Below, piece after piece: positions 9,965 to 25,279 of a stretch of 26,114 bases of DNA. Each line of letters starts with the position of its first letter. Position 1 is the stretch's first letter. The notes under the pieces were generated by a model. That model saw nothing but the letters and a program-made list of their open reading frames with translations. It ran no database searches and was not told the DNA's origin. The stretch is from a bacterium UBA6115. Lineage in GTDB: Bacteria; Bacillota_A; Clostridia; Christensenellales; Aristaeellaceae. Made by a program: the position numbers and the translations under genes. The stretch spans positions 6,799 to 32,912 of the forward strand of contig DIWD01000037.1 of assembly GCA_002428405.1 (NCBI GenBank). The letters are read 5' to 3'.

Positions 9965-9991
9965 GCCTTGAAAACTGAGCGTTCTCAAGGC
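9965..9991 (-). terminator. Original tRNA-Val terminator, now displaced at the left end of the element
   Basis: An 11-bp stem, GCCTTGAAAAC with GTTCTCAAGGC and one mismatch around a 5-base loop, is followed on the minus strand by CTTCTTCTTTC. It lies just beyond the CCA end of the tRNA fragment in attL. Before insertion it would have ended tRNA-Val transcription. A sister hairpin lies in the same position at the right end (26022-26050). Confidence 0.65.
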
Positions 9992-10045
9992 TTTTGCCTG
10001 GTGGGATTAATTGGGCTCGAACCAACGACCTCCACGATGTCAACG
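9989..10045. repeat. attL: left copy of the 57-bp attachment core
   Basis: Identical over 57 bases to 26048-26104. On the minus strand it holds the 3' part of tRNA-Val, from the 5' side of the anticodon stem to CCA (9999-10045), plus 10 bases beyond. The identity stops inside the anticodon stem, the usual exchange zone of tRNA-targeting tyrosine recombinases. The sequence right of 10045 is element DNA, so this tRNA copy is only a fragment. Confidence 0.92.
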
Positions 10046-10256: not shown

Positions 10257-10295
10257 TACCCACTTAAAACTTAAAACACTTATTACACTTAAAAC
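10257..10295 (-). promoter_or_regulatory. Left 39-bp integrase arm-type site
   Basis: Read on the minus strand, this 39-mer begins GTTTTAAGTGTAATAAG and ends GTGGGTA. Two 39-mers at the right end match it closely in the opposite orientation. Inside it a 9-base unit close to TTTTAAGTG is repeated about four times. It overlaps the stop codon of the integrase gene. AP2-like N-terminal domains of integrases bind such arm sites. Confidence 0.65.
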
Positions 10296-11470
10296 CCACC
10301 CAGGCCCTCAACGGCTCCCATGGCCTCCCGCATGGTGCTAAGGTTGGTATGGACGTATTGCTGAAGCGTGAAGGCGATCTTTGTATGCCCAATCATCTCT
10401 GAGAGCGTGCGCACGTCCACCCCAGCCCTCACGCAGTTGGTGGCGAAAGTATGACGCAGGGCATGGATACCTACGCGCTTGACGCCAGCAGCATCCAGGC
10501 TGATGCGCAGCACCCGCCCCAGGTTGCAGCGGTCAATGGCCATGCCCAGCTCATTGGCAAAGACAAACGTTTCACCCTGGATGGGTATTCCTCCGGCCCA
10601 GGCGGACCCGGCGCGGAAACGGTCCAGTACCTGAGCCTCCTTCTGTGCTGCCAGGAGCCTGATCATCCGGTCTGTGAGAGGGATGGTCCGCCTGCCGGCC
10701 TTTGTCTTTGGCGGTGAAACAGAGAGCTTGTATTTTGGTTTATCATCATCCCTCTGCCGGTCCAGATCTAGCACCCGCTGGACCGCCTGCTTGATGGTAA
10801 AGTGATCCCCGGTAATATCCTGCCAGCGCAGCCCGCAGAGCTCAGAGGCCCTCAACCCGGTGCCCAGGATGAACTGCAGCGCGCGTCCATAGATGGAGGC
10901 TGGCAGTGCTGCCATCAGTTTACGCTGTTCCTCTACAGTCAGGAATTCAATTTCCCGCGGCGCGGCCGGGGGTAGAGACAGGTGCAGGGAAGGGTTATTG
11001 GTAATCATGCCGTTAACCACTGCCTGCTTCAATGAAGCGCGCAACGGCTCCAGATGCTTCCTGACACTGGCCGGCGCCCGGCCTATTGCTGCCTGGCGGT
11101 TGATATAAGCTTGGATATGGTCCGGCCTGAGCTTCTGCAGCTTATACCGGCCCAAGCCGGGCTTCAGGTTGTTATTGATGTTCCTGAAGTGCTCAGCTGC
11201 GGTGCTGTCACGCCAGCGTGGCCGGCCGTATACCCTAAACCAGGTATCAAGCCATTCTGCCACACTGATGACAGAAGGATCAGCATACTCTCCCCGATCT
11301 AGCTGCCTCAGCACTTCCCTCAGCTTCTTCTGGGCTTCCTCCTGGGTAGGTGCGTAAACGCTCCTCTGGATCTGCTCTCCGTCCGCATCATAGCCGGCAG
11401 TGTAGCGGCCCTCCCAGCGGCCATCTTTGCGCAGCCGGACAGTGCCATCATTATTTCCTCTCTTAGGCAT
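10289..11470 (-). CDS. int: Tyrosine-recombinase integrase
   Basis: A 393-residue site-specific recombinase that catalyses insertion and excision of the element at tRNA-Val. The N-terminal AP2-like arm-binding domain (GRWEGRYTAGYDADGEQIQR region, about residues 12-45) is followed by a SAM-like core-binding domain (EWLDTWFRVYG onward). The catalytic domain has the first arginine in GTGLRASELCGLRW, HALRH, GHTKI and the nucleophile tyrosine in QQYVHT. It sits at the left end beside attL, with its stop codon inside the left arm site, the standard place for such a gene. The start abuts the repressor stop codon, so the two are co-transcribed leftward. Confidence 0.95.
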   Translation of the reverse strand: MPKRGNNDGTVRLRKDGRWEGRYTAGYDADGEQIQRSVYAPTQEEAQKKLREVLRQLDRGEYADPSVISVAEWLDTWFRVYGRPRWRDSTAAEHFRNINNNLKPGLGRYKLQKLRPDHIQAYINRQAAIGRAPASVRKHLEPLRASLKQAVVNGMITNNPSLHLSLPPAAPREIEFLTVEEQRKLMAALPASIYGRALQFILGTGLRASELCGLRWQDITGDHFTIKQAVQRVLDLDRQRDDDKPKYKLSVSPPKTKAGRRTIPLTDRMIRLLAAQKEAQVLDRFRAGSAWAGGIPIQGETFVFANELGMAIDRCNLGRVLRISLDAAGVKRVGIHALRHTFATNCVRAGVDVRTLSEMIGHTKIAFTLQQYVHTNLSTMREAMGAVEGLGGF

Positions 11471-12016
11471 TTACGAGAACCCCCTTTCGAGCAATACATT
11501 GCAGGCCTTGTATGCAGCTTGGAATTGGTCATCATAATCAGCAAAAACTTCAGGAATAAAGGATCCGTCAGGCTGTTCAATGTATTTGGGCACATACTTC
11601 TGAATGTTATCAATTTGAGCACAAATGTTCGCAAGCGGTATTAGGTAACGATCCAGGACAGGTTGACCTTCAATATCGTATCTCATTCTGAGGTTTTTTG
11701 CGGTTTGAAGAATCTTTAGCATCGCCTCTTCTCCAGGATCCCCGGCACTCTCTATAGCCTCCCTGGCATTGACTTCATGTTGATATGTTTTGTATTCACT
11801 TTGTCCGAGAATGTACTCCATCGAGTACCCAGTATAAGATGCCACCAATGCCAGCAGGTTAATATCCGGCACTGACTTCCCATTTTCATAGTAGTTATAG
11901 GTTGCTCTAGGAATCTGAAGATTTTCTGCCATCTGGGCCTGGGTGATTTTTCTCTTAAGCCGATATTCTTTTAGCCTGTTAGCGAAGGCCTCACCAGGTG
12001 TTTGCTTTCTTTCCAT
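11471..12016 (-). CDS. XRE-family repressor (Stl/CI-like master regulator)
   Basis: A 181-residue protein with an N-terminal Cro/CI helix-turn-helix (about residues 15-65: RKITQAQMAENLQIPRATY, then YYENGKSVPD) and a C-terminal region with no peptidase motif. It is therefore not a self-cleaving LexA/CI-type repressor. The ATG at 12016 is favoured over the GTG at 12025 because AAGGTG is correctly spaced before it. It is divergent from the excisionase operon and upstream of int, the position of Stl-type master repressors in phage-inducible islands. Those are lifted by binding a helper-phage protein; that this also holds here is inference. Confidence 0.85.
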   Translation of the reverse strand: MERKQTPGEAFANRLKEYRLKRKITQAQMAENLQIPRATYNYYENGKSVPDINLLALVASYTGYSMEYILGQSEYKTYQHEVNAREAIESAGDPGEEAMLKILQTAKNLRMRYDIEGQPVLDRYLIPLANICAQIDNIQKYVPKYIEQPDGSFIPEVFADYDDQFQAAYKACNVLLERGFS

Positions 12017-12171
12017 CTCTTTCACCTTTCTTGTGTCGTGTCAAATGTCGGGATTTTGGATTTGGGCACTAAGTGCTTGACTGTCTTTAATTCACAGTTT
12101 AACATACAACTCAAGCGTACACAACAAGAAAATTATTAAGGCAAGTGGCGCTAATAAAACAGGAGGTAAAC
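12017..12171. promoter_or_regulatory. Divergent control region between repressor and excisionase operon
   Basis: A rightward promoter is well formed: TTGACT (12077-12082), 17 bases, TAACAT (12100-12105). The palindrome GCACTAAGTGC (12066-12076) abuts its -35 box. GCTTGA at 12075 and TCAAGC at 12111 form an inverted pair flanking the promoter. These are candidate repressor operators. A leftward promoter is not clear. Confidence 0.55.
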
Positions 12172-12381
12172 ATGGAAAGGCAAGACAGCGCAATGGTAAT
12201 CACCGTCCCTGAAATGGGGCAGCGCTTAAAAGTATCCCGCGATGTGGCCTATCGACTTGCAAGATCGGAAGGTTTTCCGGTTGTACATATTGGCAAGCGA
12301 ATAATCGTCCCTATCCGCGAGCTGGAAGCATGGCTGGCAGATCAGGCGAGGAAAGGCGCTGCCAATGCCGACGCCGTTTGA
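12172..12381 (+). CDS. Excisionase / AlpA-like helix-turn-helix protein
   Basis: A 69-residue protein of the HTH_17/excisionase class. The core is VPEMGQRLKVSRDVAYRLAR followed by FPVVHIGKRIIVPIRELEAW (about residues 10-52), a MerR-like winged helix that recognises DNA near attachment sites or promoters. The ATG at 12172 is fixed by AGGAGG 6 bases upstream. It is the first gene of the rightward operon facing the repressor, where satellites and phages place Xis or AlpA. Its end overlaps the next gene by 17 bases. It could direct excision, activate the operon, or both. Confidence 0.85.
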   Translation: MERQDSAMVITVPEMGQRLKVSRDVAYRLARSEGFPVVHIGKRIIVPIRELEAWLADQARKGAANADAV

Positions 12382-12943
12382 CGCACTCTTTGATTCCGTG
12401 CGGGACATCTCCGCAGCCGACGCGGCTGAGCGGCTGAACATTAAGCTGCGGAAAAACAGCGAACACGCGGTTGCACTGTGTCCTTTGCACAGCGAGGATA
12501 CCCCTTCCATGACTTTTTTCCCTGACGGTCACTTTTTCTGCTTTGGCTGCCATGAGAGCGGCCGCGCCATCGAGCTCTATCAGAAGGTGCTGCGCCTTTC
12601 TGCCCTGGAAGCTGCGCGTGCCCTGGCAACTGACTTCAATATCATTGAGCCCTCAGCCTATGCCCCGGTAAAGCGCTGGGGGCCCACGGCTTACGACCTG
12701 AAGCATGCCCTGGACGCTTTCAAAGGCAAGCGCTGGGGTGCGTTGTGCAAGCATAAACACATCTTCAGGGAAATGGCCGATATCTTCGCTGCCCTGTTGG
12801 GACCTGATACCTGTGCGGAATCGGGCTCATTTTGGGCAGCTGTTCAAGGCGCCGCCAGCAGCGAGGATGAGCTATGCCGGCTGGATTCCGCGCGCCCTGC
12901 TGAACTTCTGGAGATGGCCAGAGGTGCTCATGAGCTTCACTGA
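12365..12943 (+). CDS. CHC2 zinc-finger (DnaG-type) primase fragment protein
   Basis: A 192-residue protein whose N-terminal half is a CHC2 zinc-binding domain: CPLHSEDTPSM, then FFCFGCHESG about 18 residues later, giving the C-x2-H...C-x2-C ligand set. In DnaG-type primases this domain reads template sequence. No TOPRIM or other catalytic primase domain follows; the rest is an unrecognised mostly helical region. The next gene is a DUF3987 protein overlapping by 14 bases, so the two probably act together in replication of the element, perhaps with a host or helper primase. Split zinc-finger/helicase pairs of this kind are known in phages. Confidence 0.85.
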   Translation: MPTPFDALFDSVRDISAADAAERLNIKLRKNSEHAVALCPLHSEDTPSMTFFPDGHFFCFGCHESGRAIELYQKVLRLSALEAARALATDFNIIEPSAYAPVKRWGPTAYDLKHALDAFKGKRWGALCKHKHIFREMADIFAALLGPDTCAESGSFWAAVQGAASSEDELCRLDSARPAELLEMARGAHELH

Positions 12944-14444
12944 GATGGATGAATACACTGCACTGCTCCCAACAGAGGAAGCGCAGGAGTTGCTGCAGGG
13001 GGAAGAGAAGCCCTGGGGGCCACTGCCTGGGAAACAAGACCTTCCTAATTTCCCAGTGTTCCATCTTCCTCCTATTGTTGGAAAATACATCATTGAGTTA
13101 GCAACTTTCCTGCAGCTGCCAAATGATATGCCGGGCGTCACAGCTATTGGCGCGGTAATGATTGCAGCTCTAGGATCTTATGCAACCGTAAAGCCGGGAT
13201 ACATAGAGTTCCTACAGTTATACCTTGCAATTATCGCTCCTCCATCAGAGCGCAAATCTGCCTTACTCGCCTTTGTGCTTCGTCAAATCATGAAGTTTTG
13301 CAATGAGACAAATGCTGAAAACGCGTCCGAAAAAGCGGCCGTGGATCTTAAACGTGAAATGCTGAGCAAGCAACTTAATAAGGCAAAAGACAAAGGGGAC
13401 GAAGAGAGAGCTAATTCGCTTGTCGAGCAGATTGAAGCCCTGCCTGACATTAAAGTGCTGCACCCTCCGCTGACTGATACTACCTCAGAAGCGCTGGGAC
13501 CTATCATGCAAAAAAATGGGGGGATGGCTGCCATTGCATCGGCTGAAGGTGCCTTTTTGAGTGCCCTGGCGAGCATGTATGCAGAGCTAACAAACATTGA
13601 TATTCCTCTTCAAGGATACTCGGGCGATTCAGTCTATGTAGCGCGAATCAGTCGTGAACCGGTCATTATCAAAAATGCCTTGTTGGCGATTCTGTTAGTG
13701 GTTCAGCCTCACGTTATAGACTGTTTAATGAGCAATGAGCAGTTGCTTTCGCGTGGACTTTGTGCTCGTTTTCTTTACAGTTACCCGACCTCATTGATTG
13801 GACACCGGGAAATCAGGAATGCCCGGCCTGTATCAAAAACAACTGAAAATGCCTTCAACAGCATCATCCAGACGCTGCTTCAACAGTCTTATAAGGGGGA
13901 AACCAGAGAACTCACCCTCTCGCCGGAAGCGATGGAGCTCTATTACGGCTGGGCTGAAGAGGTCGAAAAAAACATTGGACCGGGAGCTATTTGGCATGGC
14001 ATTGCGAATGGGTGGGAGGGCAAACTTGTGGGCAATACCATCCGCCTGGCCGGGATCGTCAAGCTGATGGATTCTCAGGATTATGCCCTTCCTATTGAAG
14101 AAAGTCACTTCAGTGCGGCCATTGAGCTGGCGCGGTATTTCGTAGCTCACGCCTTGGCTGTCACTGGCAAGGCGGCCGGATTGACTCCTGCCGCGCGTGA
14201 AGTCCTGGATGAACTGAAAAAGCAGGGTGAGTCTCCCTTTTCACCTTATACCCTCCGGCAAAGGCTGCGTTTTAGGAAAAATTTCAAAGAAGGATCAAAG
14301 GTTGATGAAGCCTTGTCCTGCTTGGCAGCAGCGGGCTTCATTCGTAAAACTCTCCCCCCTGCCTGGCAAGGCGTAGGACGTAAGCCGGAAGCGCTGTATG
14401 AGGTGCACCCGGGGCTGCTGCCATTAAAAAGCAAGGAGAAATGA
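12930..14444 (+). CDS. DUF3987-family helicase-like replication protein
   Basis: A 504-residue protein of the DUF3987 family, found beside primase modules in phages and satellites. Evidence: the atypical P-loop AIIAPPSERKSALL (from about residue 100, where ERKS replaces the usual GK[ST]), the central block EPVIIKNALLAILLVVQPHV, and the family signature GLCARFLYSYP with GHRE shortly after. I place the start at the ATG at 12930, which overlaps the CHC2 gene, rather than further upstream inside that gene. A middle insert (about residues 130-170) is charged and helical. It is likely an ATPase partner of the CHC2 protein. Altered P-loops occur in this family, so this alone does not show inactivity. 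Confidence 0.82.
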   Translation: MSFTEMDEYTALLPTEEAQELLQGEEKPWGPLPGKQDLPNFPVFHLPPIVGKYIIELATFLQLPNDMPGVTAIGAVMIAALGSYATVKPGYIEFLQLYLAIIAPPSERKSALLAFVLRQIMKFCNETNAENASEKAAVDLKREMLSKQLNKAKDKGDEERANSLVEQIEALPDIKVLHPPLTDTTSEALGPIMQKNGGMAAIASAEGAFLSALASMYAELTNIDIPLQGYSGDSVYVARISREPVIIKNALLAILLVVQPHVIDCLMSNEQLLSRGLCARFLYSYPTSLIGHREIRNARPVSKTTENAFNSIIQTLLQQSYKGETRELTLSPEAMELYYGWAEEVEKNIGPGAIWHGIANGWEGKLVGNTIRLAGIVKLMDSQDYALPIEESHFSAAIELARYFVAHALAVTGKAAGLTPAAREVLDELKKQGESPFSPYTLRQRLRFRKNFKEGSKVDEALSCLAAAGFIRKTLPPAWQGVGRKPEALYEVHPGLLPLKSKEK

Positions 14445-14447
14445 ATC

Positions 14448-14705
14448 ATGTTTGTCAAAGCCGGATTCAGGACCAGCAACAGGCAAGAGGCGGAAGATGC
14501 AGTGCTTTACTGGGAGCTAAAGCAGAAAAACCTGGAAGCAAAGATCTGCAGGATCGACCCGCGCAACGTCATCCTGTTCGATGAACTGTTTGACAAGATC
14601 CTTGACGCAAGAGACGAAATCGAGCGCTTGAAAGCCCTTATCAGTGGAATCCGCTCAAATGGTTATGTGGAGGCCGGTAATGGAACTGAAAAACCCAAAG
14701 CATGA
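14448..14705 (+). CDS. Small hypothetical protein between replication gene and terS
   Basis: An 85-residue protein not recognised. It begins MFVKAGFRTSNRQEAEDAVL, has a helical middle rich in Asp/Glu/Lys (ELFDKILDARDEIERLKAL) and no membrane segment or cysteine pair. An AAGGAG ribosome site precedes the ATG. The gene starts 3 bases after the DUF3987 stop and overlaps the terS start by 26 bases, so it is in the same operon and probably translated in coupling with both. Confidence 0.7.
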   Translation: MFVKAGFRTSNRQEAEDAVLYWELKQKNLEAKICRIDPRNVILFDELFDKILDARDEIERLKALISGIRSNGYVEAGNGTEKPKA

Positions 14706-15216
14706 GCGTTTCAGCCAGGAGTACCTCATTGACCTGAATGCTTCCCAGGCGTATCTGCGCACCGGCTACAGGGGCCGGCGCCCAGATGCGCGCGCTGCGG
14801 AGCTGAAGGCAAAGCCCACGATCACCGCGCGGATTGCTGAGCTGATCGCTGATCGGGCCGCGCGCGTCGGGATGAACCAGGAGAGGGTCATCCGGGAGCT
14901 GGCACGTATCGCCTTCATCGACCCTTCCAAGCTGATTGACGCGCAGACCGCGGCCGTGCTGGAAAATGCCTCAGTGGATGACCGCGCGGCCATCGCCAGT
15001 GTGAAGGTCAAGATCGGTGATGACTGGATTGAGCGCGAGGTTCGCCTGGTGGACAAACTGCGCGCCCTGGAGCTATTGGGCAGGCATCTGGGCATGTTTC
15101 AGGATAACCTGAACATCACCGGCGATCTGCCGAAGATAATTAACAACATACCAGTCTCCCCGGCTGGAGACAAATCAACGAAGGGAACAGGTAATGCAAA
15201 TGGCCGGAGAGCTTGA
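14680..15216 (+). CDS. terS: Phage terminase small subunit (Terminase_2 family)
   Basis: A 178-residue DNA-recognition subunit of the packaging motor. The N-terminus has the family's helix-turn-helix layout: HERFSQEYLIDLNASQAYLR, TGYRGRRPDARAAELKAKP, then ITARIAELIADRAARVGMNQ. The middle has VIRELARIAFIDPSKLID, and near residue 130 is DKLRALELLGRHLGMF, a very typical end of this family. A GGAGG site precedes the ATG at 14680. No large subunit is present anywhere in the element, so this protein must work with a foreign TerL. In known phage-inducible islands this is how the satellite diverts packaging to its own DNA. The gene overlaps the tape-measure gene by 23 bases. Confidence 0.93.
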   Translation: MELKNPKHERFSQEYLIDLNASQAYLRTGYRGRRPDARAAELKAKPTITARIAELIADRAARVGMNQERVIRELARIAFIDPSKLIDAQTAAVLENASVDDRAAIASVKVKIGDDWIEREVRLVDKLRALELLGRHLGMFQDNLNITGDLPKIINNIPVSPAGDKSTKGTGNANGRRA

Positions 15217-18200
15217 TTTAGGCAGTATTGTCATGCGCATCCGCGCAGACATGTCCGGCGTACAAAAGAGCGTCGACCAGCTGGCTCATGAGATGGGAAG
15301 AATGGAGACGGTCACCGGCAGCGCTGGAGGCAAGGTTGAAGCATCAGCCCAGAAAATGAGCAGGTCTGTGCAGGATAGCAGTATTGCCCAGGCAGCAGCA
15401 TACGGCGCCATTGCAGCGGCCGCAGTCAAGGCAATGAGCATAATCAGCAACGCGATCACGGCGGGGATCGCAGCATCTGAGCGCTACAAGGCCGCGCTCA
15501 TCGGCCTGAGCTCTGTCGCAGCCGGCAAGGGTATTAACTCTGATGCAATGGATGCAGCACTCCGCCAGGTCACAGACGCCTTCTTTGACGCGGCATCGGC
15601 CTCCACGGCCTTTAAGAACCTGCTTAGCCGCGGCTACGACCTGGACCAGGCTACGCAGTCAATTATCCGGTTGAAAGATGCAGCTGCCTTTGGCCGCCAG
15701 GCGTCTCTGAGCTTGGCTGATGCGGTTATGAGTGCTACAGAAGGCTTGAAAAATGAGAATTCAATTCTCGTTGATAATGCGGGCGTGACTAAGAATGTCA
15801 GCATGATGTGGAAGGATTATGCCAAAACCATCGGCGTGACGGTCGAGAGCATGACCACGGCCCAGAAGGTCCAGGCTGAAGTTGCCGGCATCATGAAAGA
15901 AACCCAGCACCAAGTGGGCGATCTGGCCAAAGCAACGGACACGCTGGCTGGTAAACAGGCTGCAGCTGCCCAGAGCGGGGTCCTGCTGGCCCAGGCGTAT
16001 GGTGAGAGCATGACTCCGGCCGTGTCCGTTGTGACTGAGCTGCTTAAAGGGCTGACGGACACCCTGGCCGGGATAGTCCAGGAAGCGCCTGCACTGGTTT
16101 CAGGCGCTACGGCCACCAGTCTGGCTATCGCCAGCATGACTGTTGCGACAAAGGCAGCCCAGGCGCTCAGAGCCTTCAATAACCATCTCCAGGCAGCAGC
16201 CGGTGGTGCTACCTTCTTTGGCGTTGCGATCAAAACAGCCCTGCCTTGGATGGCTGCCATTGCTGCGATTGTTGGCGTTGTGACCGTTGCATATACCGCG
16301 ATGAAAAAGAAGCAGGAGGAAGCAGCCGAAAAGCAGCGAGAAGAGGCGCAAAAGGCAAAGGAAGAAGCCAAGGCTCTGCAGGATAAAATCACGAAGCTGG
16401 ATGACTTAAGCAAAAAATACGAGGAGCTCATTGGCAAGACCCGGCTGACCTTCGCTGAAAGTGAAGAGCTTTTGGCCTTGCAAAAACAGCTGCAGAAAGA
16501 GTATGGCCTTACTGGCACATCCCTGCAGGGTCTGGCGAGTGATTACGGTACGGTGACCGGTGCGATTCGGGAGATGCACATCGAGCTGCTGAAAACGCAG
16601 CAGGCGGAGAAGGATACCGCGGCGGCGTCGGCTAAGACTATCCTTGTCGGAACGGATAAATACAAACAGGTAACTAGTCAGATCAGCACCATGAAGGCCG
16701 AACTCGATAAACTGCTCACTTCGTCTGGACTTACCGGGGTCGGCGCAATGGACCGCTTGATTAGGTCAGATGCGGCGGCTGCATCACTTAACGATGAAAT
16801 ATATCAACTTGAAAAAGAGAAAGCGCGGCTCGAAACAATCATATCCCCGAAAGCGCTTACAGACTTTAGAGCTGCGCGCAGCAGTGCGGCAGTTGATTAT
16901 GTCAAGGCTGAGATTGCTGCAATCACCGGTGAATTCGAGATCGGCGGCGGGATAGTTAATGCAGCGGCCAAGGAGCTGATTGACAACCTCTTCCTGGGCC
17001 TGGCAGCAAACCCGAAGAACGCGACGCAGGCTGACCCGGATCGCCTGATGAAGGAGTATGCCGCGGCGTTGAAAGCCGCTGACATTGGCCCGGCCATGCA
17101 GGCGATGGACGGGATTAATCAGAAGATCATGATGGGGGCTATCCCGACATCTAGCGAAGTCTCCAGCATTGAACAGAATTGGAGTGTAATCAGCACCTTC
17201 GCGCAGGGCGTGGGCAAGGCCCTCAACCTGTCCGCTGAGGATACTAAGGCCTTTGCTGCTACGCTGGCGCCGGTCATGACATTGGCCATCAATAAGACGG
17301 ATGAACTGGCTGCCGCGGGGGCGGCACTGGCTGCGCAGTGGAAAGAATCAAGCATCGCCATGGTGACCAACATGGCCCCCACAGACCAGACCTCCTGGAT
17401 TGGGGACGCAACCGAAAACGCCCGGAAAGGTATTGACGACCTGACTAAGCTGGCCCAGGAAGCGAAAAAGCAGTCAGACATTGTCAAAGGTCTGAACTTC
17501 ATGCGCATTAACTGGGACAAGCAGGACAGCGAAGGGTTCAAGCTCGGAGTCGCCCTGCTCACAGAATACGGCGAGGCCGCACCAAAGAATCTAGCGGTGG
17601 TCAATAAGGAATACGAAAACCACTCAAAAATCCTGAAAGGCGCGAACATCGACCAGGCGATGCTGATGAGCAGCATGCAGGGCACCATAGCATCGCTGAA
17701 ACAGTACCGCGATGCATTGGATGAAAACTCCTCAGGCTACAAGCTCATGGATGCGCTGGTTGCGGAACTTGAAACGTCCTTCATCGCGATTGCCGCTATC
17801 CGGACACCCGAGCTTTCGCTTGACCCGAGCAAGTATATATCCGACCTTGAAAAAATCGATACGTCCTTCAAGGGCCTGGGGAATACGGCAAAGAGCACCT
17901 TTGCCGAAATGGAGATCCTCGCCTCAAAAATCGCAAGCGACAGCAAGCTGCAGTCCGCGCTTGCGCAGCTGAAGGGTGAGATGGAAGGTGGCCGCGGGAC
18001 CGGGCTGCTGGCCGAGAGCCTGCGCGAGCACATCAGGAGCACAGCCGAGTACGCAAACGCTGCGCTGGCCAACATCGATGAGGTCAATGCCGCAATCGAC
18101 ACCACGGCTGTCAGGCAGGCTGCCGCGGCCGGGGAGACAGAACTGCTGACCGCAAGCATTGATCGGCTGTATACGGATCTGATTGAGGGGCAGAAACAAT

Positions 18201-20041
18201 TTGCAGAAAGCAGCTCTGAGTACAAAATCTTTGAAGGCCTGATTGCACAGATCAGCCAGTGGAAGGCGGCACTTGCAGACGCCGGAACCGTAAGAATTAC
18301 AGTAGAAGGCACAGATGGCGCGAAGGATCTTCAAGAACTGTCCGCGCAACTGGAGGCGATAGGTAAAGCGACGCAGGACATCCGTGTCAAGCAGGACAGC
18401 ATCGCCGGCATTCAGCGCCTGGTTGCCGAAGCGAAGAAGGCAAGGACTGCCGGGAAAGACTTCTCCAAACAATGGGAACAGATCACCGCCTTCCTGGGCA
18501 AGGATTTCACCGGCAGCCTGGACGACGCCGACGCGTCAATTGAAGCAATGGCCTCCGGCACCAAGGCCGCGATGGATTCCGCATCCTCCTCTCTGGATAC
18601 CATGGAAGCCCAGATACTCTCCCTCATCGCGGCGGCGGAGCAGGACATCACCATTTCACCACAAGTCAGGTCAGCCAACTTGGGGCCGCTGTACGCCCTC
18701 CTGGCAATTATCAACGCTATCCGGAGAGCGACAGGCCAGGGCCCCATCGGCAGCGGCGGCGGCGGTGGCGGCGGACAGAGCGCCTTCCAGAAGGACCTCG
18801 CGGTCATGGCACACGACGTGGAGATGGGCCGACTGACGCTTGAAGGCGAGCTGCAAAAGCTTGAGGCACTTGACCTCAAATACCGCAATAAGCGCGGGAA
18901 GAGCACACTGAAGACAGACGACCAGAAGGAACTCGATGAGCAAATCTACAGCAAACGCGAAGAGCTGCGCAAGAAGGCGCTGGAAGACGACTACGCCGCG
19001 CTTGACCATAAAAAAACACTCAACACGATAAGCGTCAGCGATGAGATTGCAGCACTTGAAAATATCAAGACAGCCCATCAGCTGAATGCTGAGGAAATAA
19101 TGGAGATCGAGGAGAAGCTTTACGACGCGAGAACACGGCAGAAGGAAACCCTCTACCAGTGGGACATCGCGCTGCTTGATCATCAGCTTTCCACCAGCGA
19201 GATGAGCGCCAATGAAGAAATCGTCCGGCTGGAGCGCATCAGAGACGCACATGAGCTGAGCCAGGAACAGCAATACGAAGTCGAAGAACGCATGTACGCC
19301 CTGCGCAAGCAGCTGCAAGAAGCGCAGGAAAGCGCAGTTACAAGTGCATACAAGCGCATCACAGACGCGCTAAAGAACCAGCTGGATGAGCAGAAGGACA
19401 TGGAGCTTGAAGCGCTGGACGATCGCATCGAGGAACTGAACGCGCTGACCAAGGCCGAGAATGAAGCCGCGCGAAAAGACGACGCTGCAAAGAACCTGGC
19501 AGACAAACAGCGAGAGCTGGCCGTGGAGAAGTCCGCACGCCGGCGCCGTGAACTCCAGGAAGAGATTGCGGAGATGGAGGCCGCTGAAGCCTTAAGACTA
19601 TCTCAGGAAGTGCGGCAGGCTGAGATTGACGCGCTTAACGATCAGAAGAAAGCGGTTACAGACAAATACGCCGAGTTGGCAAAAGAAGAAAGCCTGAGGC
19701 AGGAAGCCCTTCGTCTGGTGATGAGCGGCAACCTGCAGCAGATGACGGACCTGATCGCCTCCTACGGCGAGGAATGGCAGGACGCAGGTGCGCAACTGGC
19801 TGAGGCGCTGTCCAGCGGCCTGCTGGGCAACAGCGGCGCTATCCTTGACACCATCAACAGCCTGACCACCGCCATCCAGGACAGCATCAACGATCAACTG
19901 ACAGCGATCGGGATGAACCTACCGATGGGTGCCGGAAATACCCTTAACGTCTACATGAGCGGCATCACTATTCGTGAGGAAGCAGACCTGGCCCTCCTTG
20001 TCGATGAAATGTATAAAAACATCCAGAAGGCCAGGCGCTGA
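15194..20041 (+). CDS. Phage tail tape-measure protein (1615 residues)
   Basis: It spans the tail tube of siphoviruses during assembly and sets tail length. The N-terminus (MRIRADMSGVQKSVDQL) and the region around residues 170-240 (SLADAVMSATEGLKNENSIL, then VESMTTAQKVQAEVAGIM) match tape-measure proteins of Firmicutes phages. A hydrophobic segment lies at about 349-370 (ALPWMAAIAAIVGVVTVAYT), followed by a long Lys/Glu coiled coil. A seven-glycine linker lies near residue 1190. The remaining roughly 350 residues are coiled coil with repeated units. The last residues (NTLNVYMSGITIREEADL) are a typical tape-measure tail. It is full length with no frameshift. At about 0.15 nm per residue it implies a tail near 240 nm. 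It overlaps terS, and no tail tube or chaperone gene is present. Confidence 0.92.
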   Translation: MQMAGELDLGSIVMRIRADMSGVQKSVDQLAHEMGRMETVTGSAGGKVEASAQKMSRSVQDSSIAQAAAYGAIAAAAVKAMSIISNAITAGIAASERYKAALIGLSSVAAGKGINSDAMDAALRQVTDAFFDAASASTAFKNLLSRGYDLDQATQSIIRLKDAAAFGRQASLSLADAVMSATEGLKNENSILVDNAGVTKNVSMMWKDYAKTIGVTVESMTTAQKVQAEVAGIMKETQHQVGDLAKATDTLAGKQAAAAQSGVLLAQAYGESMTPAVSVVTELLKGLTDTLAGIVQEAPALVSGATATSLAIASMTVATKAAQALRAFNNHLQAAAGGATFFGVAIKTALPWMAAIAAIVGVVTVAYTAMKKKQEEAAEKQREEAQKAKEEAKALQDKITKLDDLSKKYEELIGKTRLTFAESEELLALQKQLQKEYGLTGTSLQGLASDYGTVTGAIREMHIELLKTQQAEKDTAAASAKTILVGTDKYKQVTSQISTMKAELDKLLTSSGLTGVGAMDRLIRSDAAAASLNDEIYQLEKEKARLETIISPKALTDFRAARSSAAVDYVKAEIAAITGEFEIGGGIVNAAAKELIDNLFLGLAANPKNATQADPDRLMKEYAAALKAADIGPAMQAMDGINQKIMMGAIPTSSEVSSIEQNWSVISTFAQGVGKALNLSAEDTKAFAATLAPVMTLAINKTDELAAAGAALAAQWKESSIAMVTNMAPTDQTSWIGDATENARKGIDDLTKLAQEAKKQSDIVKGLNFMRINWDKQDSEGFKLGVALLTEYGEAAPKNLAVVNKEYENHSKILKGANIDQAMLMSSMQGTIASLKQYRDALDENSSGYKLMDALVAELETSFIAIAAIRTPELSLDPSKYISDLEKIDTSFKGLGNTAKSTFAEMEILASKIASDSKLQSALAQLKGEMEGGRGTGLLAESLREHIRSTAEYANAALANIDEVNAAIDTTAVRQAAAAGETELLTASIDRLYTDLIEGQKQFAESSSEYKIFEGLIAQISQWKAALADAGTVRITVEGTDGAKDLQELSAQLEAIGKATQDIRVKQDSIAGIQRLVAEAKKARTAGKDFSKQWEQITAFLGKDFTGSLDDADASIEAMASGTKAAMDSASSSLDTMEAQILSLIAAAEQDITISPQVRSANLGPLYALLAIINAIRRATGQGPIGSGGGGGGGQSAFQKDLAVMAHDVEMGRLTLEGELQKLEALDLKYRNKRGKSTLKTDDQKELDEQIYSKREELRKKALEDDYAALDHKKTLNTISVSDEIAALENIKTAHQLNAEEIMEIEEKLYDARTRQKETLYQWDIALLDHQLSTSEMSANEEIVRLERIRDAHELSQEQQYEVEERMYALRKQLQEAQESAVTSAYKRITDALKNQLDEQKDMELEALDDRIEELNALTKAENEAARKDDAAKNLADKQRELAVEKSARRRRELQEEIAEMEAAEALRLSQEVRQAEIDALNDQKKAVTDKYAELAKEESLRQEALRLVMSGNLQQMTDLIASYGEEWQDAGAQLAEALSSGLLGNSGAILDTINSLTTAIQDSINDQLTAIGMNLPMGAGNTLNVYMSGITIREEADLALLVDEMYKNIQKARR

Positions 20042-20075: not shown

Positions 20076-20234
20076 ATGATGAAGATTACTGAAGATTTAG
20101 GCAATCTCCTGGGCTTCTTTGAAGAAATGCGAGGCCTTGCAGAGCAGCAGATTAAGCGCCTGGAGAAAATCAAGGCCGATGCAGATGCGTACCTGGAAAA
20201 GCAGCAGCAGGAAAGCGAAGCCGGCGAACAATAG
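20076..20234 (+). CDS. Small coiled-coil hypothetical protein (52 aa)
   Basis: A short protein beginning MMKITEDLGNLLGFFEEMRG. It is one helix with heptad-like leucines and many Glu/Lys/Gln, ending QQQESEAGEQ. An AAGGTGG ribosome site precedes a double ATG (20076 or 20079). It directly follows the tape-measure gene and is probably co-transcribed. No family recognised. Confidence 0.6.
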   Translation: MMKITEDLGNLLGFFEEMRGLAEQQIKRLEKIKADADAYLEKQQQESEAGEQ

Positions 20235-20357: not shown

Positions 20358-20768
20358 ATGAGTATGTTCACCCTCAAAAGAGGCCTCAAGGCAAGAATCA
20401 CCAGGATGGTGGATTTTCGCGATTCTTTCAAAAAGGAACTCGACCAACAGCTGCGCGATCCCAGGTATGGCCAGGAACAGTGCGCCAGGCTTGCAGCCCC
20501 AACGGCTGAGCGGTATCTGGCCAATTCCGGCATGACCCTGCGCGTGGCAACCGACCTGATTGACACCGCGATCAGTGGCGTCTGGGCAGCCCATGGCCCC
20601 GCCAGCGTGGTTGACACCCTGAAGCAGGTGAAGGCCAAGCTGACCGACTATGCCAGCACCCCGCTCACAGAGAACCCCGATCAGCACATGCAGGCCGCCA
20701 TGGAGTTGATTGATGGCCAGCTCACCGACGACCTGCAGCGCCATATCACCCCCGACACTGCAGTCTGA
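20358..20768 (+). CDS. Hypothetical protein, member 1 of a three-copy paralogous family
   Basis: A 136-residue, mainly helical protein not matched to a named family. Its start (FTLKRGLKARITRMVDFRDS) and later IDTAI, VVDTLKQVKAKLTDYA and LTDDLQRHI align along almost the full length with the protein at 21225-21611 (TLKLQLSTRILKQINPIRAS, IDTAL, VVAALNNLKALVAAYA, LSDDLQTIEV). The N-terminal 65 residues also resemble the protein at 21636-22232. The ribosome site is weak (AGGCAGG, 11 bases before the ATG). A structural or assembly role is possible from its place beside tail and neck genes, but this is not shown. Confidence 0.7.
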   Translation: MSMFTLKRGLKARITRMVDFRDSFKKELDQQLRDPRYGQEQCARLAAPTAERYLANSGMTLRVATDLIDTAISGVWAAHGPASVVDTLKQVKAKLTDYASTPLTENPDQHMQAAMELIDGQLTDDLQRHITPDTAV

Positions 20769-20781: not shown

Positions 20782-21159
20782 ATGGCCATCATTCTTGAAG
20801 GCGTCCAGAATGTCATGAACAAGTTTTCTGAGCTGATGAATAACATCGGAGATCAGACAGAGGAAAGCATGAACGAGATTGTCATCGACATCGGCTCCAG
20901 GGCTGCGGAGAAAGCCCCTGTAGGCAAATCCGGCAACCTGCATGGCAGCATGGAAACCGAAGTGAAGACAGAAGGTGATGAGGTAGTTGGTGAGATCCGC
21001 TTCACTGAAGAGTACGCGGCAGCACAGCATGAACACGTTGAGTATGTTCACCCCCAACATGGTGAGGCCAAGTACCTTGAAAAGGCCGCGTTGGAGAAAT
21101 TGGAGCAGATCAGAGAAAATCTGGGCGCCAAACTCAACGAACTGTTTGGAGGCTCATAA
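20782..21159 (+). CDS. HK97-gp10-like phage morphogenesis protein
   Basis: A 125-residue protein of the HK97-gp10 family, which acts at the head-tail junction or tail end of siphoviruses. The pattern EKAPVGKSGNLHGSMETEV, then FTEEYAAAQHEHVEYVHPQHG and AKYLEKAALEKLEQIRENL matches the family's aPvdTGnLr, yA.yvE.G and peLrpAl blocks. GGGGAAG precedes the ATG at 20782. In complete phages this gene lies between the capsid and tail-tube genes, upstream of the tape-measure gene. Here it lies downstream of it, so the order is rearranged. It may adapt the satellite's tail or neck to helper particles. Confidence 0.78.
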   Translation: MAIILEGVQNVMNKFSELMNNIGDQTEESMNEIVIDIGSRAAEKAPVGKSGNLHGSMETEVKTEGDEVVGEIRFTEEYAAAQHEHVEYVHPQHGEAKYLEKAALEKLEQIRENLGAKLNELFGGS

Positions 21160-21224: not shown

Positions 21225-21611
21225 ATGGAACACACTCTCAAATTACAGCTTTCAACCCGGATCCTTAAGCAGATCAACCCGATCCGCGCATCCTTTGCTG
21301 AAAAGATCGCTTTCTTGAACAATTCGGCTTGCTACACCTCTGAACAGAAGGCCGCCTTTGTAGCACATGAAGAGGCCCTCTACGCTGTCGCGGTGCAGAC
21401 ATCTCGAGAGCTTGTCGACCAGGTGATTGACACTGCCCTGCTGGCCTACCCGGAAGCGCCGGTGGTTGCCGCGCTGAACAACCTCAAGGCACTTGTAGCT
21501 GCCTATGCCGCAGTACCGGCCGCTGCCGATGCTTCGGCTGAGTGGCAGGCCGTGACCGACTATGCAAATCATCTGTCTGATGATCTGCAGACTATTGAAG
21601 TGCCTTACTAA
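21225..21611 (+). CDS. Hypothetical protein, member 2 of the paralogous family
   Basis: A 128-residue helical, alanine-rich protein. It aligns with the 136-residue protein at 20358-20768 through its whole length, including TLK at the start, IRASF, the IDTAL block, a VVAALNNLKALVAAYA helix and LSDDLQ near the end. YTSEQKAAF matches FTQEHKDQL of the third member. An AAGGAG site lies 8 bases before the ATG. A 65-base gap after the HK97-gp10-like gene has no other feature. Function unknown. Confidence 0.72.
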   Translation: MEHTLKLQLSTRILKQINPIRASFAEKIAFLNNSACYTSEQKAAFVAHEEALYAVAVQTSRELVDQVIDTALLAYPEAPVVAALNNLKALVAAYAAVPAAADASAEWQAVTDYANHLSDDLQTIEVPY

Positions 21612-21635: not shown

Positions 21636-22232
21636 ATGTCACTTAAAAACAATTTGACAGACGCCATCAGGTCCCTCACGGATCTCAGGTCCAGTGTTAA
21701 GGAGCAGATCCGGGTCATCGAAAAAGATGATCGGTTCACTCAGGAGCACAAGGATCAGCTGATCCAGGATGCCAAGGCGGCTTTTACCGTCAGCGCTGAC
21801 GCTGTGGCCAGTAATGCCAGAGCACAGATTGACCAGGCCAGGAAGGGCTTCCAGCAGAGCCAGGGCGCTATCACAAAGAACCGGCTAAGCCCAGACCGCG
21901 CTCAGGCCTTCCAGGCCGCCATCCGTATGATCGAACTGGGAGGAAAGATACTCAGCGCCGGGGACCTTCGCGAGCTGGCGGAGCCCTTTGAAGATGATCG
22001 TATCGCCCTGGCTGCCATCCGCGGCCTGGTCGAGCGTGAGGGGCTCAACGGTGAGCAACTGCCCTTTATTGGGGATAAGAACCCGGACGGTCCGCTTGAT
22101 ATGGCATGGGGCACGATCAACAAGGTTGCATCAAAGCCCCTGGATGCGGACATTGGCCTGGAAGTGGCCGTGGAGATCGCCCATATCGAGCAAATGCCAG
22201 CCTCTGTGTTTGAAGCGGTGGCCAACACCTAA
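21636..22232 (+). CDS. Hypothetical protein, member 3 of the paralogous family, with extra C-terminal domain
   Basis: A 198-residue protein. Residues 1-65 (SLKNNLTDAIRSLTDLRSSV, then FTQEHKDQLIQDAKAAFTVS) share the pattern of the two preceding paralogues. The rest is a separate region with SPDRAQAFQAAIRMIELGGK, LRELAEPFEDDRIALAAIRG and a C-terminal DIGLEVAVEIAHIEQMP helix. No named family recognised. It is the last gene before the hairpin leader of the sigma-like gene. The shared N-terminal domain on different C-terminal ends suggests a common binding partner. Confidence 0.68.
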   Translation: MSLKNNLTDAIRSLTDLRSSVKEQIRVIEKDDRFTQEHKDQLIQDAKAAFTVSADAVASNARAQIDQARKGFQQSQGAITKNRLSPDRAQAFQAAIRMIELGGKILSAGDLRELAEPFEDDRIALAAIRGLVEREGLNGEQLPFIGDKNPDGPLDMAWGTINKVASKPLDADIGLEVAVEIAHIEQMPASVFEAVANT

Positions 22233-22324: not shown

Positions 22325-23116
22325 GTGTCAAATGAAAAACTGGTTTTAGCTATCCAGGCGGGTGATCAGGACCGAGTGCCGGAGCTCTGGGAACAGGTGA
22401 AACGATACTGCTTCATGCTTATCAACAAATACAAAGCCCTGGCTGAAATGAACGTTGCGGTGAGCCTGGAAGATCTGGAGCAAGAAGCCTATTTGGGCAT
22501 GATAGCGGCCATTCGACGATTCGACCCTGCGAGGGCAAGCTTTATCGCAATTCTCAAACTATGTGTCAGTGATCATTGCCGCGAAGCTCTGGGTATCCGA
22601 AGCAAGCGGCCAAAGCTTGAGCACTTTGTCAAACAATCCCTTGATGCACCTCTGCCCGGCCAAGAGGTCAACGGCCTCACGCTGCTGGAGAGGGTGGAGG
22701 ATATAACACTTCCTGGTATGACTGATGCCTTGGAGCAGGACGACATGAAGCGGGAACTCCGGGAGGCAATCAGCCGACTGCCCTACGGCTGGGATGAATT
22801 CATGCGGCAGCACTTCCTGGAGGGAAAACCCTTGCATGACATAGCGCGCGATCAGGGAGTTGCCAAACAGGGCATTTACCAAAAGAAGAAAAAGGCCATC
22901 GAAAAACTGAAAAGGGATCCGTCCTTGCGTATGTATGCGGACCTCAATTATTTCAAACCCAAAGGGGTGAGTGCTTTTCACCGGACAGGCAGCTCAACCA
23001 CTGAGGATCTGGTAATACGCCTTGAAGAGAATAGGGAAAATGAAGAAGCCAGGAAAGCCCAGCTGTTGAAGGAGCTGGAAGAATTGAGGCTTGAACAGGA
23101 AGCGAGCAAGGTATAA
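22325..23116 (+). CDS. Sigma-70-like transcription factor of phage type
   Basis: A 263-residue protein with sigma region 2 (SLEDLEQEAYLGMIAAIRRF, then DPARASFIAILKL, about residues 45-80). Region 4 follows (ELREAISRLPYGWDEFMRQH, EGKPLHDIARDQGVAKQGIY, about 140-195), whose second helix reads promoter -35 DNA. The last 60 residues are charged helix. Such small two-domain sigma-like proteins control late genes in Firmicutes phages. The start is the GTG at 22325 after GGAGG, the ribosome site that lies inside the hairpin. It may direct RNA polymerase to element genes, or respond to or mimic a helper-phage factor. The target promoter is unknown. Confidence 0.8.
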   Translation: MSNEKLVLAIQAGDQDRVPELWEQVKRYCFMLINKYKALAEMNVAVSLEDLEQEAYLGMIAAIRRFDPARASFIAILKLCVSDHCREALGIRSKRPKLEHFVKQSLDAPLPGQEVNGLTLLERVEDITLPGMTDALEQDDMKRELREAISRLPYGWDEFMRQHFLEGKPLHDIARDQGVAKQGIYQKKKKAIEKLKRDPSLRMYADLNYFKPKGVSAFHRTGSSTTEDLVIRLEENRENEEARKAQLLKELEELRLEQEASKV

Positions 23117-23416
23117 TCAAGGCTTAGTTTTCTTTTTTGATGAGCCTGGCTTTGGCTTCTTTTCTACCATCTCGGTACCTTCCTGGTATTGCTTCATCCT
23201 CTGTGCGAACAGCCGGGCAATGTCATGGATCAGTGCGTCCTGGCCTGCCAGGGCCTCCGGCGTCGCCTTGATGTATAGGGGCACTGAGGGCAGGAAACTG
23301 CCATCCGGAGCCCGCATGGCAGTAACGCCTACCTGGATGTATTGGTCATCTGGCATAGGGAATCTCCTTTCCTTCATCAGGGCCTTTAAGCACTCCGGCC
23401 TAATAAACACTTCCAT
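23117..23416 (-). CDS. Hypothetical protein (99 aa) convergent with the sigma-like gene
   Basis: It begins MEVFIRPECLKALMKERRFP, with a compact N-terminal domain (YIQVGVTAMRAPDGSFLPSV) and a basic C-terminal tail (VEKKPKPGSSKKKTKP) that may bind nucleic acid or be flexible. No family recognised. The ATG at 23416 is preferred; a GTG at 23422 is possible. Neither has a recognisable ribosome site, so the mRNA may have a short leader from the palindromic promoter region at 23438-23459. Its stop directly abuts the sigma gene stop with no terminator between, so rightward transcription runs antisense through this gene. Confidence 0.6.
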   Translation of the reverse strand: MEVFIRPECLKALMKERRFPMPDDQYIQVGVTAMRAPDGSFLPSVPLYIKATPEALAGQDALIHDIARLFAQRMKQYQEGTEMVEKKPKPGSSKKKTKP

Positions 23417-23437
23417 TAGCACTGTTAAATAATAAAC

Positions 23438-23459
23438 AGCGGTATTATATAATACCGCT
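23438..23459. promoter_or_regulatory. Perfect 22-bp palindrome containing TATAAT in both directions
   Basis: AGCGGTATTAT followed by ATAATACCGCT is self-complementary over 22 bases. On the minus strand its TATAAT (23449-23444) is placed to serve as the -10 box of the 23117-23416 gene, about 28 bases before the start codon. No -35 match is evident, which suggests an activator or a dimeric regulator site. Confidence 0.5.
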
Positions 23460-23468
23460 AAAGAAGCA

Positions 23469-23500
23469 CAGCCCTCGCTTTCGCAGGGGCTGCCTTTTAA
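23469..23500 (+). terminator. Intrinsic terminator for rightward transcription
   Basis: CAGCCC pairs with GGGCTG, and CGC/GC continue the stem to a TTTC loop (23469-23492). CCTTTTAATTTT follows. It is placed to stop rightward transcripts that have passed the sigma-like gene and crossed the opposing 23117-23416 gene. Confidence 0.65.
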
Positions 23501-23541
23501 TTTTAGCGAAGTTTCTCCCGAGGTGGCGATGTTTGGGGCTT

Positions 23542-23946
23542 TTATGAGATGTGTTTTAGAATCTGGAGTGCTTGTGTTTTGAAGCCTCTATCTAGTAACA
23601 CCTTAACGAATTCTTTCCATGGCGGAATAATACTCATATATGGGTTTTCGTCTGGTCCAGAATACATTCCACCACCTGGCCCTGTATACAAGCCACCACC
23701 AGGTCCAGTATAAAGACCTCCTCCTGGTCCAGTGTAAAGGCCACCACCTGGTCCAGTATACATGCCTCCGTCTGGCCCAGTGTAAAGACCGCCACCAGGA
23801 CCAGTATACATACCTCCACCTGGTCCAGAATACATACCTCCACCTGGTCCAGTGTATGCCCCACCATCTGGTCCGGTGTATAGTCCCCCACCGGGACCTG
23901 TGTAGTTACCGCCGCCTGGGCCCGTATATTGATTTCTTGGCCACAT
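23542..23946 (-). CDS. Octapeptide-repeat protein, probable 4-fold beta-flower
   Basis: A 134-residue protein. After MWPRNQ it has twelve tandem octapeptides of the form YTGPGGGx (x is L, M, N or A; the last copy is YSGPDENP), then a C-terminal helix (PPWKEFVKVLLDRGFKTQAL). From memory this pattern, including N/W-rich start and IPPW tail, is that of the 4-fold beta-flower domain found by structure-prediction surveys; its function is not established. AGGAGG precedes the ATG. It lies in the minus-strand cargo block downstream of the DUF3892 gene. It could be a cargo effector or a surface/structural protein. The repeat is clear from the sequence; the fold is inference. Confidence 0.8.
   Translation of the reverse strand: MWPRNQYTGPGGGNYTGPGGGLYTGPDGGAYTGPGGGMYSGPGGGMYTGPGGGLYTGPDGGMYTGPGGGLYTGPGGGLYTGPGGGLYTGPGGGMYSGPDENPYMSIIPPWKEFVKVLLDRGFKTQALQILKHIS
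23641..23928 (-). repeat. Twelve 24-bp tandem repeats coding YTGPGGGx
   Basis: The coding repeat runs in perfect 24-base register for 288 bases. Copies differ mainly at third codon positions and at the eighth residue, so the protein pattern has been kept while the DNA drifted. This argues for selection on the protein rather than recent duplication. Copy number may vary between strains. Confidence 0.9.
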
Positions 23947-24052
23947 ACTACATCCTCCTATTAAAAAGTAGTATAGAACCTGTATTGGTCTTAAGTGCGC
24001 ATTCAGAGACTATTCCAAATATACCATGATTCAAAATGTACAGCAAGCAATC

Positions 24053-24352
24053 TTATCCGCGGGGAAGGCTCAGGAGATTATCCTTCGTGCTGTCATTTGA
24101 GATTGAACGCACATACTTCTCATGGGTTCTTGTACTTACTAAGGCAATCAGCTTGGGGTAAGGAGGGATATTAACAGAAACCACATGGCCTTCATTAATT
24201 AAGTCATGGACCTGAGCCTTTTTATACCAGCCCTCTCGTGTTACGCCAGTCAAATAGATCTCATCAATCTCCAGCAGCAGGTTCTCAAGCGAGTAGTAGA
24301 CTGAAGCGCTGCTGTAGCTTGGCTTCATTCTGATTCTGGTTGCATAGACCAT
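24053..24352 (-). CDS. DUF3892-like protein
   Basis: A 99-residue protein whose second half carries the DUF3892 pattern: GWYKKAQVHDLINEGHVVSV, and HEKYVRSISNDSTKDNLLSL near the end, matching the family's yLRs...DNL..LP ending. The domain has no assigned biochemical role. AAGGAAG precedes the ATG. A good promoter lies about 70 bases upstream on the minus strand. It is the first gene of the leftward run that continues into the beta-flower gene, 106 bases on. It may be an accessory or defence cargo gene, which is inference from position only. Confidence 0.72.
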   Translation of the reverse strand: MVYATRIRMKPSYSSASVYYSLENLLLEIDEIYLTGVTREGWYKKAQVHDLINEGHVVSVNIPPYPKLIALVSTRTHEKYVRSISNDSTKDNLLSLPRG

Positions 24353-24791
24353 GAGTGTACTTCCTTTCTGCTTTATTTAGTTTTCATGTTATTAATGGGA
24401 TTTGTTGCGCCACGGAAGGCATTATAAAAGCATGTGTATCATAAGTCAAATGTGACTATCTCCAAAAGATACAGCCTAGCACGTCACTAATAAAGATGAA
24501 TGGTTTTTCTAATCCACTATGCTCCCTCACTGAATGGGGCTGAGCCCGGGCGCTAGTAATCCCTTCGCTGGCGGGGAGGCCCTGGAATCGCCCCAAAAGG
24601 GCAATAATGGCGGCTGACCCCCACTCCCTAATTTAGCGGAAATTCGTGCAAGTTGGGGACACGGTCCACCCGGCGCAGGTGTCGGAGATTTGATACCCCC
24701 TGCTGCCACTGTCCTACTTTTTCCAACCGTTTGAGGCTTACACGCGCGCGAGGGCTTTACTCTGTTATACCCCCATAAAGGGCAAAAAGAA
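24353..24791. other. Non-coding island of about 440 bases
   Basis: This is the largest stretch without a credible gene inside the otherwise packed element. Its left fifth carries the DUF3892 promoter. The rest (about 24530-24780) turns GC-rich, with several runs of C or G and many small self-complementary pieces. No ribosome site plus open frame is found on either strand; a 60-codon minus-strand frame at 24527-24709 has no ribosome site. It could hold a packaging site (cos/pac), a replication origin or a structured RNA. Confidence 0.45.
24421..24449 (-). promoter_or_regulatory. Promoter of the DUF3892 gene block with inverted repeat
   Basis: On the minus strand TTGACT (24449-24444), a 17-base spacer and TATAAT (24426-24421) form a near-consensus promoter for the leftward genes. 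GTCA-AATG-TGAC (24445-24456) is an inverted repeat over the -35 box and a candidate operator. Confidence 0.75.
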
Positions 24792-24812
24792 AAGGCCCCC
24801 TCAGGGGGCCTT
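24785..24812 (-). terminator. Intrinsic terminator of the leftward 36-aa/106-aa gene pair
   Basis: AAGGCCCCC (24792-24800) and GGGGGCCTT (24804-24812) form a perfect 9-bp stem with a 3-base loop. On the minus strand it is followed by TTCTTTTTG. It lies 15 bases past the stop of the 106-residue gene. Confidence 0.9.
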
Positions 24813-24826
24813 GATTGCCTGATTAT

Positions 24827-25147: not shown

Positions 25148-25168
25148 GTTTGTTTCCTCCTTTATTAA

Positions 25169-25279
25169 TTAGATGGCTTCGTTCTTGTAAAGTCTGACGA
25201 CAAACTTGTAGATTCTGATTAAGGTTGCTTCGCTCTTGATTTTCCCCAGCGCTTTCATAATCAAATCCTTGTAATCCAT
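25169..25279 (-). CDS. Small basic protein (36 aa)
   Basis: The frame reads MDYKDLIMKALGKIKSEATL then RIYKFVVRLYKN, a short basic helical protein. AAGGAG stands 6 bases before the ATG. It resembles the very short basic peptides common next to regulators in Firmicutes prophages, with no known function. It is the first gene of the leftward transcript from the promoter at 25343-25371, which has a palindromic operator in its spacer. Confidence 0.65.
   Translation of the reverse strand: MDYKDLIMKALGKIKSEATLIRIYKFVVRLYKNEAI

Follow-up and report, generated by a model that had tools for sequence, protein, structure and literature searches.

A candidate phage satellite encoding a terminase small subunit, a tape measure protein and a probable tail completion protein

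The window analysed here, a stretch of 26,114 nt from contig DIWD01000037.1 of bacterium UBA6115, contains an integrated element of about 16 kb within a segment of chromosome. The element displays genes for a terminase small subunit (TerS), for an intact tape measure protein (TMP) with both of its ends and, probably, for a tail completion protein (TCP), arranged in an order that differs from that of phages. That it is a real integrated element with intact TerS and TMP genes and a TCP-like gene is held with high confidence. We propose that a long-tailed siphovirus is its helper and that the element is a satellite similar to the phage-inducible chromosomal islands (PICIs), whose TerS would redirect packaging and whose TMP and TCP would replace those of the helper in the tail; the probability of this reading was put at roughly 0.5. 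A satellite is the probable identity of the element rather than a remnant, and entry of TMP and TCP into its own particles was considered about an even chance. Only tentatively do we suggest a lineage of siphovirus satellites with a matched kit of TerS, TMP and TCP, in which the satellite would set packaging choice and tail interior together.

In the proposed mechanism, the late genes of the helper would supply the terminase large subunit (TerL), the portal, the head, the tail tube and the tip, and TerS of the satellite would steer the helper TerL and portal onto satellite DNA. Satellite TMP and TCP would take the place of the helper versions inside the tail, giving particles with helper heads, a helper tail tube and a helper tip around a tail interior chosen by the satellite. 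Tape measures rule about 0.15 nm of tail per residue, at which the satellite TMP would set the tail interior and a tail length of about 240 nm; the TCP would close the tail on the DNA end. Both TMP, at three copies in 80alpha, and TCP, at one copy, are low-copy proteins that touch each other, TCP contacting the DNA end, and for this reason tail length, holding of the DNA end and ejection behaviour would be fixed by a few satellite polypeptides in each particle. As 16.06 kb is about one third of a 48-kb headful, each helper-sized head would have room for three satellite copies and no capsid-size factor would be needed, as was proposed for AH14b (PMC4936722). We infer helper dependence, use in virions, chimeric tails and all steps of assembly and transfer.

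The tape measure, TerS and tail completion genes

The initial annotation had placed a TMP gene of 1615 residues across the end of terS with an overlap of 23 bases. The open frame of 1,615 codons (15194-20041) was found as described and the overlap was not: most aligned relatives begin with M-A-x-E-L-D or a similar sequence, which makes ATG 15200 the likely start, overlapping terS by 17 nt and preceded eight bases upstream by AGG (by eye). Of 7,993 candidates scored, 90 reached E 0.001 or better; among these 90, the near-identical P0001 and nine others (38-45 % identity) aligned over 100 % of the query. Family profiles responded weakly (phrog_7078, of unknown function, 1.7e-12; phrog_1533, tape measure, 4.1e-5), and Pfam and NCBIfam gave no match. 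In annotated records, matches were limited to one of 50,697 phages (10 % of the query) and five of 72,556 plasmids (9-16 %).

Assignment as a tape measure followed from full-length homology to phage proteins with tail-tip genes next to them, Dit following TMP in loci L050, L053 and L054. A chaperone, tube, TCP-like, Dit or Tal gene was found near the TMP gene in all ten of the best loci (L050-L056 and L002-L004, the latter being TMP loci at E 1e-63 or better). Labelling with 20 seed proteins gave a labelled neighbour in 74 of 128 loci and in 16 of the 30 later TMP loci, where the best eight (L212-L219) were all labelled; the argument relies on the ten best loci alone, because the remainder are unlabelled (few seeds, contig ends).

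By its sequence the gene is intact. In a leave-one-out comparison of 22 aligned TMPs, the window protein kept 223 of the 235 columns (95 %) conserved in the other 21, for which the values were 69-99 %. Its N-terminus and last 125 residues aligned with relatives, including P0023, the protein representing L050 in the TMP tree, whose gene has Dit and Tal behind it. A second copy, P0001, a full-length frame on a contig of 43,628 nt with one residue different in 1,613, argues against misassembly within the gene. In the tree, the window TMP was sister to P0002/P0003 (support 100/100) and stood apart from the readable phages L050, L051 and L053. P0002 and P0003 are TMPs of 1,830 residues on contigs of 14,906 and 17,141 nt; they form the nearest TMP group, about 45 % identical, and have a central region in common with the window protein. 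Repeats of about 60 residues in the C-terminal half numbered three in the window protein versus six in this group (by eye), and a ruler would be altered by this sort of difference.

It was asked of these data whether TMP and TCP might be passengers, recently acquired from an unsampled phage and of little use to the element. The linkage of TerS and TMP is known from the window alone, and with the nearest group so distant a phage source nearer than this group could have escaped sampling. Against this, TMP makes up 30 % of the element, sits without gap in the row of replication and packaging genes, and is a full-length frame in the second copy as well; such a passenger was judged very improbable.

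The gene first annotated as terS is a genuine one, matching PHROG_51 (1e-33) besides PF03592 and, through a profile of 16 TerS (A3), the solved TerS 3zqp (Table 1). Relatives P0103-P0116, at 61-73 % identity, headed the best 120 of 3,139 matches. In the TerS tree, the window protein belonged to a five-row clade with P0104 (support 100/92; bootstrap not settled) and was separate from the readable phage L053. Phage records gave 108 matches, the best at 50.7 %. A TerL-like gene followed within the next three genes in 76 of 81 terS loci (80 loci from profile matches in viral contigs, plus L130). The other five were L133 and L156, with no sequence after terS, L130, where the portal gene is next, L186 and L190.

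A third virion gene, overlooked in the initial annotation, probably encodes the TCP. Its product was 53 % identical to that of an L051 gene and 49 % to that of an L053 gene, both located upstream of tail terminator, tube and TMP, which is the homology expected of the HK97 gp10 type. Nine relatives were found in phage records (best E 9e-8); phrog_5 scored 3.6e-7, and PF04883, at E 0.017, fell below its cut-off. The fold taken as typical of the HK97 gp10 type comprises a long N-terminal helix, a beta-hairpin, a short helix and a C-terminal helix. Three element-specific proteins (g20358, g21225 and g21636) surround the TCP, and none had a relative among the 6,694 open reading frames (ORFs) of 321 fetched loci at E 0.01. 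The N-terminus of g21636 is weakly related to g20358, and a viral-fold search with g21636, at a threshold of E 0.001, matched nothing. As a guess, the three might be TMP chaperones or competition factors.

Relation to phages and sister elements

If the element were a deletion remnant, according to the initial annotation, its close relatives should be complete prophages in which terL, portal and capsid genes separate terS from TMP. The nearest readable relatives (L053 and L056) are indeed such phages, with terS and TMP 9,558 nt apart, and this, together with the tail genes near TMP in all ten best loci, weighs against a satellite. L053, a siphovirus-type contig from IMG/VR, displayed the order terS-terL-portal-...-capsid-...-TCP-...-TMP-Dit-Tal (labels such as capsid and portal were assigned by eye). 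Its TerS is 54 % identical to that of the window and its TMP 44 % in the best segment (50 % over 429 residues in another comparison); unlike the element, it has a head and tail module and carries TCP upstream of TMP.

The corresponding alternative is a rearranged remnant of an L053-like prophage, stripped of head and most tail genes, in which terS, TMP and a displaced TCP would be functionless. A single deletion between terS and TMP does not explain the locus, because TCP, upstream of TMP in the phages, lies downstream of it here. Dit and Tal were not recognised after TMP, no broken genes were noticed in the element, its frames are open at full length, and the conserved columns of TMP are retained. 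Three element-specific genes, one with ten relatives, lie around TCP, and both TerS and TMP group apart from readable phages in their trees. A remnant was therefore considered unlikely.

The initial annotation had proposed looking for the same gene order in related islands. The 321 fetched loci held terS in 147 cases, TMP in 158 and both in five; terS adjoined TMP in none of these five (distances of 8,445-9,558 nt), and many loci could not show both since they reach at most 10 kb to each side. Viral contigs found with TerS-clade profiles A3 and A6 and TMP profile A5 likewise offered no terS beside TMP.

Traces of sister elements came from g21636, which had ten relatives at 61-70 % identity besides the window's own copy. 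One of them, P0093 (68 %), and the TerS relative P0104 (72 %) have the same longest contig size, exactly 14,211 nt; for sizes over 10 kb, a rough hand estimate gives a chance of coincidence of a few per thousand. A match at 1008 (P0101, P0154) was taken as chance, short sizes being crowded. The TMP matches included none at 14,211 nt or at 15,694 nt (the contig size of P0094), which does not count as absence since one longest contig is listed per cluster. Five TMP/TerS pairs with equal contig sizes (22725, 19606, 244305, 32754 and 656224) are presumably phages.

No relative of g21636 was found in viral contigs, by single protein or profile A2, or in the 50,697 phage records. Whole genomes (60 searched by protein; overlapping sets of 295, 391, 398, 251, 200 and 200 by profile) were chosen around the presumed host, so that absence there says little, and gave a single match at E 3e-4. 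This 190-residue frame in L211, which we take to be ribosome recycling factor, was judged a chance match; other element genes had only weak, short matches there. The DUF3987 protein had no relative in viral contigs or in five genomes, and 841 matches in phage records, all under 60 %. Record L129 (MT836114.1, 'Bacteriophage sp.', gut, 12.9 kb) displayed integrase-, repressor- and DUF3987-like genes (DUF3987 at 33 %) at its left end, and inspection by eye showed no obvious gene for a head or tail; it is possibly a satellite of another kind.

Comparison with known satellites

Satellites have long been known to redirect packaging and heads yet to take tails unchanged, until the PLE satellites (PLEs) of Vibrio cholerae changed that for one family (2026). 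According to PMC12987554, PLEs encode a TMP and an assembly chaperone, and PLE11 also a hub protein. PLE11 virions hold the satellite TMP and not that of the helper, with tails 10 nm shorter, as predicted, and removal of tmp cut transfer by ~99.9 % (PLE11), 96 % (PLE1) and 99 % (PLE4). The likeness lies in a satellite-encoded TMP accompanied by other TMP-linked tail proteins, all remaining tail parts of PLE particles coming from the helper. As described there, the PLE helper is the contractile-tailed lytic ICP1 and the kit is TMP, assembly chaperone and baseplate hub, whereas the kit here is of siphovirus type (TMP, probable TCP and TerS) in a probably clostridial host; a PLE is marked by homologous TMP/TAC/BhuB in a Vibrio island. 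The initial annotation knew of no satellite with TerS and TMP together. For the pair this agrees with the open-licence literature to August 2026, where none was found; for a satellite TMP as such the PLEs have precedence. The principle is thus an established one, of which the present kit is a new variation.

The same source also bears on another explanation, according to which the satellite TMP and TCP would act as mismatched ruler and cap that poison helper tail assembly, and would not serve satellite particles. Tail assembly and TMP are known targets of defence by Tab (PMC10884400) and Rta (PMC12987554); neither inhibitor is described as a tape measure. Here a full-length TMP whose two ends are conserved is paired with a probable physical partner, which exceeds what a decoy needs, and packaging of the satellite through TerS would still require working tails. 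Such interference was judged improbable.

The anatomy supports the initial view of a satellite with its own TerS and TMP. As in Staphylococcus aureus pathogenicity islands (SaPIs) and other PICIs of about 15 kb, the element has att sites in host DNA, its own integrase, a divergent repressor and AlpA-like regulator, primase and helicase genes, and terS; it differs in carrying TMP and TCP, and no capsid-size or interference gene was recognised. Many PICIs, although not all, have terS without terL, and terL was not recognised among 19 plausible element genes. The regulators (Stl/CI-like opposite AlpA/Xis-like) followed by primase/helicase correspond to the PICI outline, taken in part from PMC11773190. 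Absence of phage structural genes was used there as a criterion for EcCIMP1; because TMP and the probable TCP breach it, the element is filed as PICI-like and not as a PICI. Capsid-forming PICIs (cf-PICIs) encode capsid, protease, portal, connectors, TerL and TerS according to PMC10690885, and of this set only TerS was recognised here. Both would provide part of the virion together with TerS, but cf-PICIs make heads and borrow tails, whereas the present element, without recognised head genes, would supply parts of the tail interior.

If the suggested lineage with a matched kit is real, replacement of the tail interior would exist beyond the Vibrio PLEs with a different kit, as a general satellite strategy, its purpose perhaps being altered ejection or escape from defences that recognise helper tape measures. 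With a second element, another tail type and another tail-interior part, tail piracy would seem to be the rule in general. Direct tests would become possible of the need for TMP and TCP to match, of what decides which TMP enters the particle and of whether TMP serves to dodge defences recognising tape measures.

Boundaries and other features of the element

The att sites reported initially are intact, being a perfect 57-nt direct repeat with copies 16,059 bp apart. According to Rfam, a tRNA gene truncated by the end of the window overlaps the right-hand copy with its 3' part; its anticodon, read by eye, is GAC, hence tRNA-Val. Chromosomal genes before the element encode, by eye, an ABC sugar transporter and a glycyl radical enzyme with its activase. 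Among 40 genomes searched, Anaeromassilibacillus sp. An250 had the best match to the glycyl radical enzyme, at 72 % identity, and on this single gene a clostridial host is likely. Integrase and repressor genes point leftward, and those from the HTH_17 regulator to the sigma-like factor form a tight rightward row in the order of Table 1. The reported lack of TerL, portal, capsid, protease and tail-tube genes was upheld and extended to chaperone, Dit and Tal, none being recognised in the element genes (PHROGs were compared with all 19, Pfam with 18).

Table 1. Features of the integrated element in window coordinates. Starts of the HTH_17 and DUF3987 genes were taken as ATG 12172 and ATG 12930; DUF3987 family scores were computed with the longer frame from 12705.
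Feature	Coordinates	Strand	Evidence
attL, 57-nt copy of tRNA-Val 3' part	9989-10045	.	identical to 26048-26104
Tyrosine integrase	10289-11470	-	PF00589 6.1e-23; phrog_1 9.7e-67
XRE/CI-like repressor, divergent	11471-12025	-	PF01381 7.1e-14
HTH_17 AlpA/excisionase-like regulator	12172-12381	+	PF12728 9.2e-10 (frame from 12145); phrog_66 1.3e-9
CHC2 zinc-finger primase-like protein	12365-12943	+	PF01807 2.9e-15
DUF3987 helicase-like replication protein	12930-14444	+	PF13148 8e-70; phrog_2373 DNA helicase 1.4e-64
85-residue ORF of unknown function, between DUF3987 and terS	14448-14705	+	weak herpesvirus-family match below cut-off; no PHROG
TerS	14680-15216	+	PF03592 3.9e-29; PDB 3zqp 1.3e-15 by profile A3
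TMP, 1613 residues from ATG 15200	15200-20041	+	full-length relatives; conserved columns
51-residue ORF, coiled-coil-like by eye	20079-20234	+	single PHROG match, E 0.049
Element-specific small protein g20358	20358-20768	+	28 % identical to g21225, E 4.7e-6
Probable TCP (HK97 gp10 / 80alpha gp51 type)	20782-21159	+	
Element-specific small protein g21225, g20358 paralogue	21225-21611	+	comparison with g20358
Element-specific helical protein g21636	21636-22232	+	10 relatives at 61-70 %; helical model, pLDDT 72
Sigma-70-like factor, possible late regulator	22325-23116	+	phrog_351 2.4e-23; TIGR02937 4.1e-16
Right-end accessory genes	23117-25719	23117, 23542, 24053 (DUF3892) and 24827 on -; 25465 on +	
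attR, second 57-nt copy over tRNA 3' part	26048-26104	.	repeat comparison and Rfam

Among the accessory genes, 24053-24352 matched PF13031 (1.2e-7) and the remaining four matched no family; a single, weak PADLOC match of the former (E 0.0051) was disbelieved. The gene at 23542-23946 (- strand) encodes a protein of eight-residue repeats of the YTGPGGGL/M type, seen in the DNA as a 24-nt tandem repeat.

Promoter-like sites showed no excess overall (12 versus 11.8 in shuffles). One of them, a perfect sigma-70 match (12/12, 17-nt spacer) on the - strand at 22331-22241, points leftward between g21636 and the sigma-like gene and is followed after about 40 nt by a terminator-like hairpin of 11 pairs with a T run; the arrangement resembles a small-RNA unit some 60 nt long, with a fold z of only -1.4. 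Near attR (25786-25917), a 66-nt unit occurs in two imperfect tandem copies (74 %), and its GTTTTAAGTGTAATAAG motif recurs by eye near attL (~10262-10296) on the opposite strand; these units and motifs are possible integrase arm sites.

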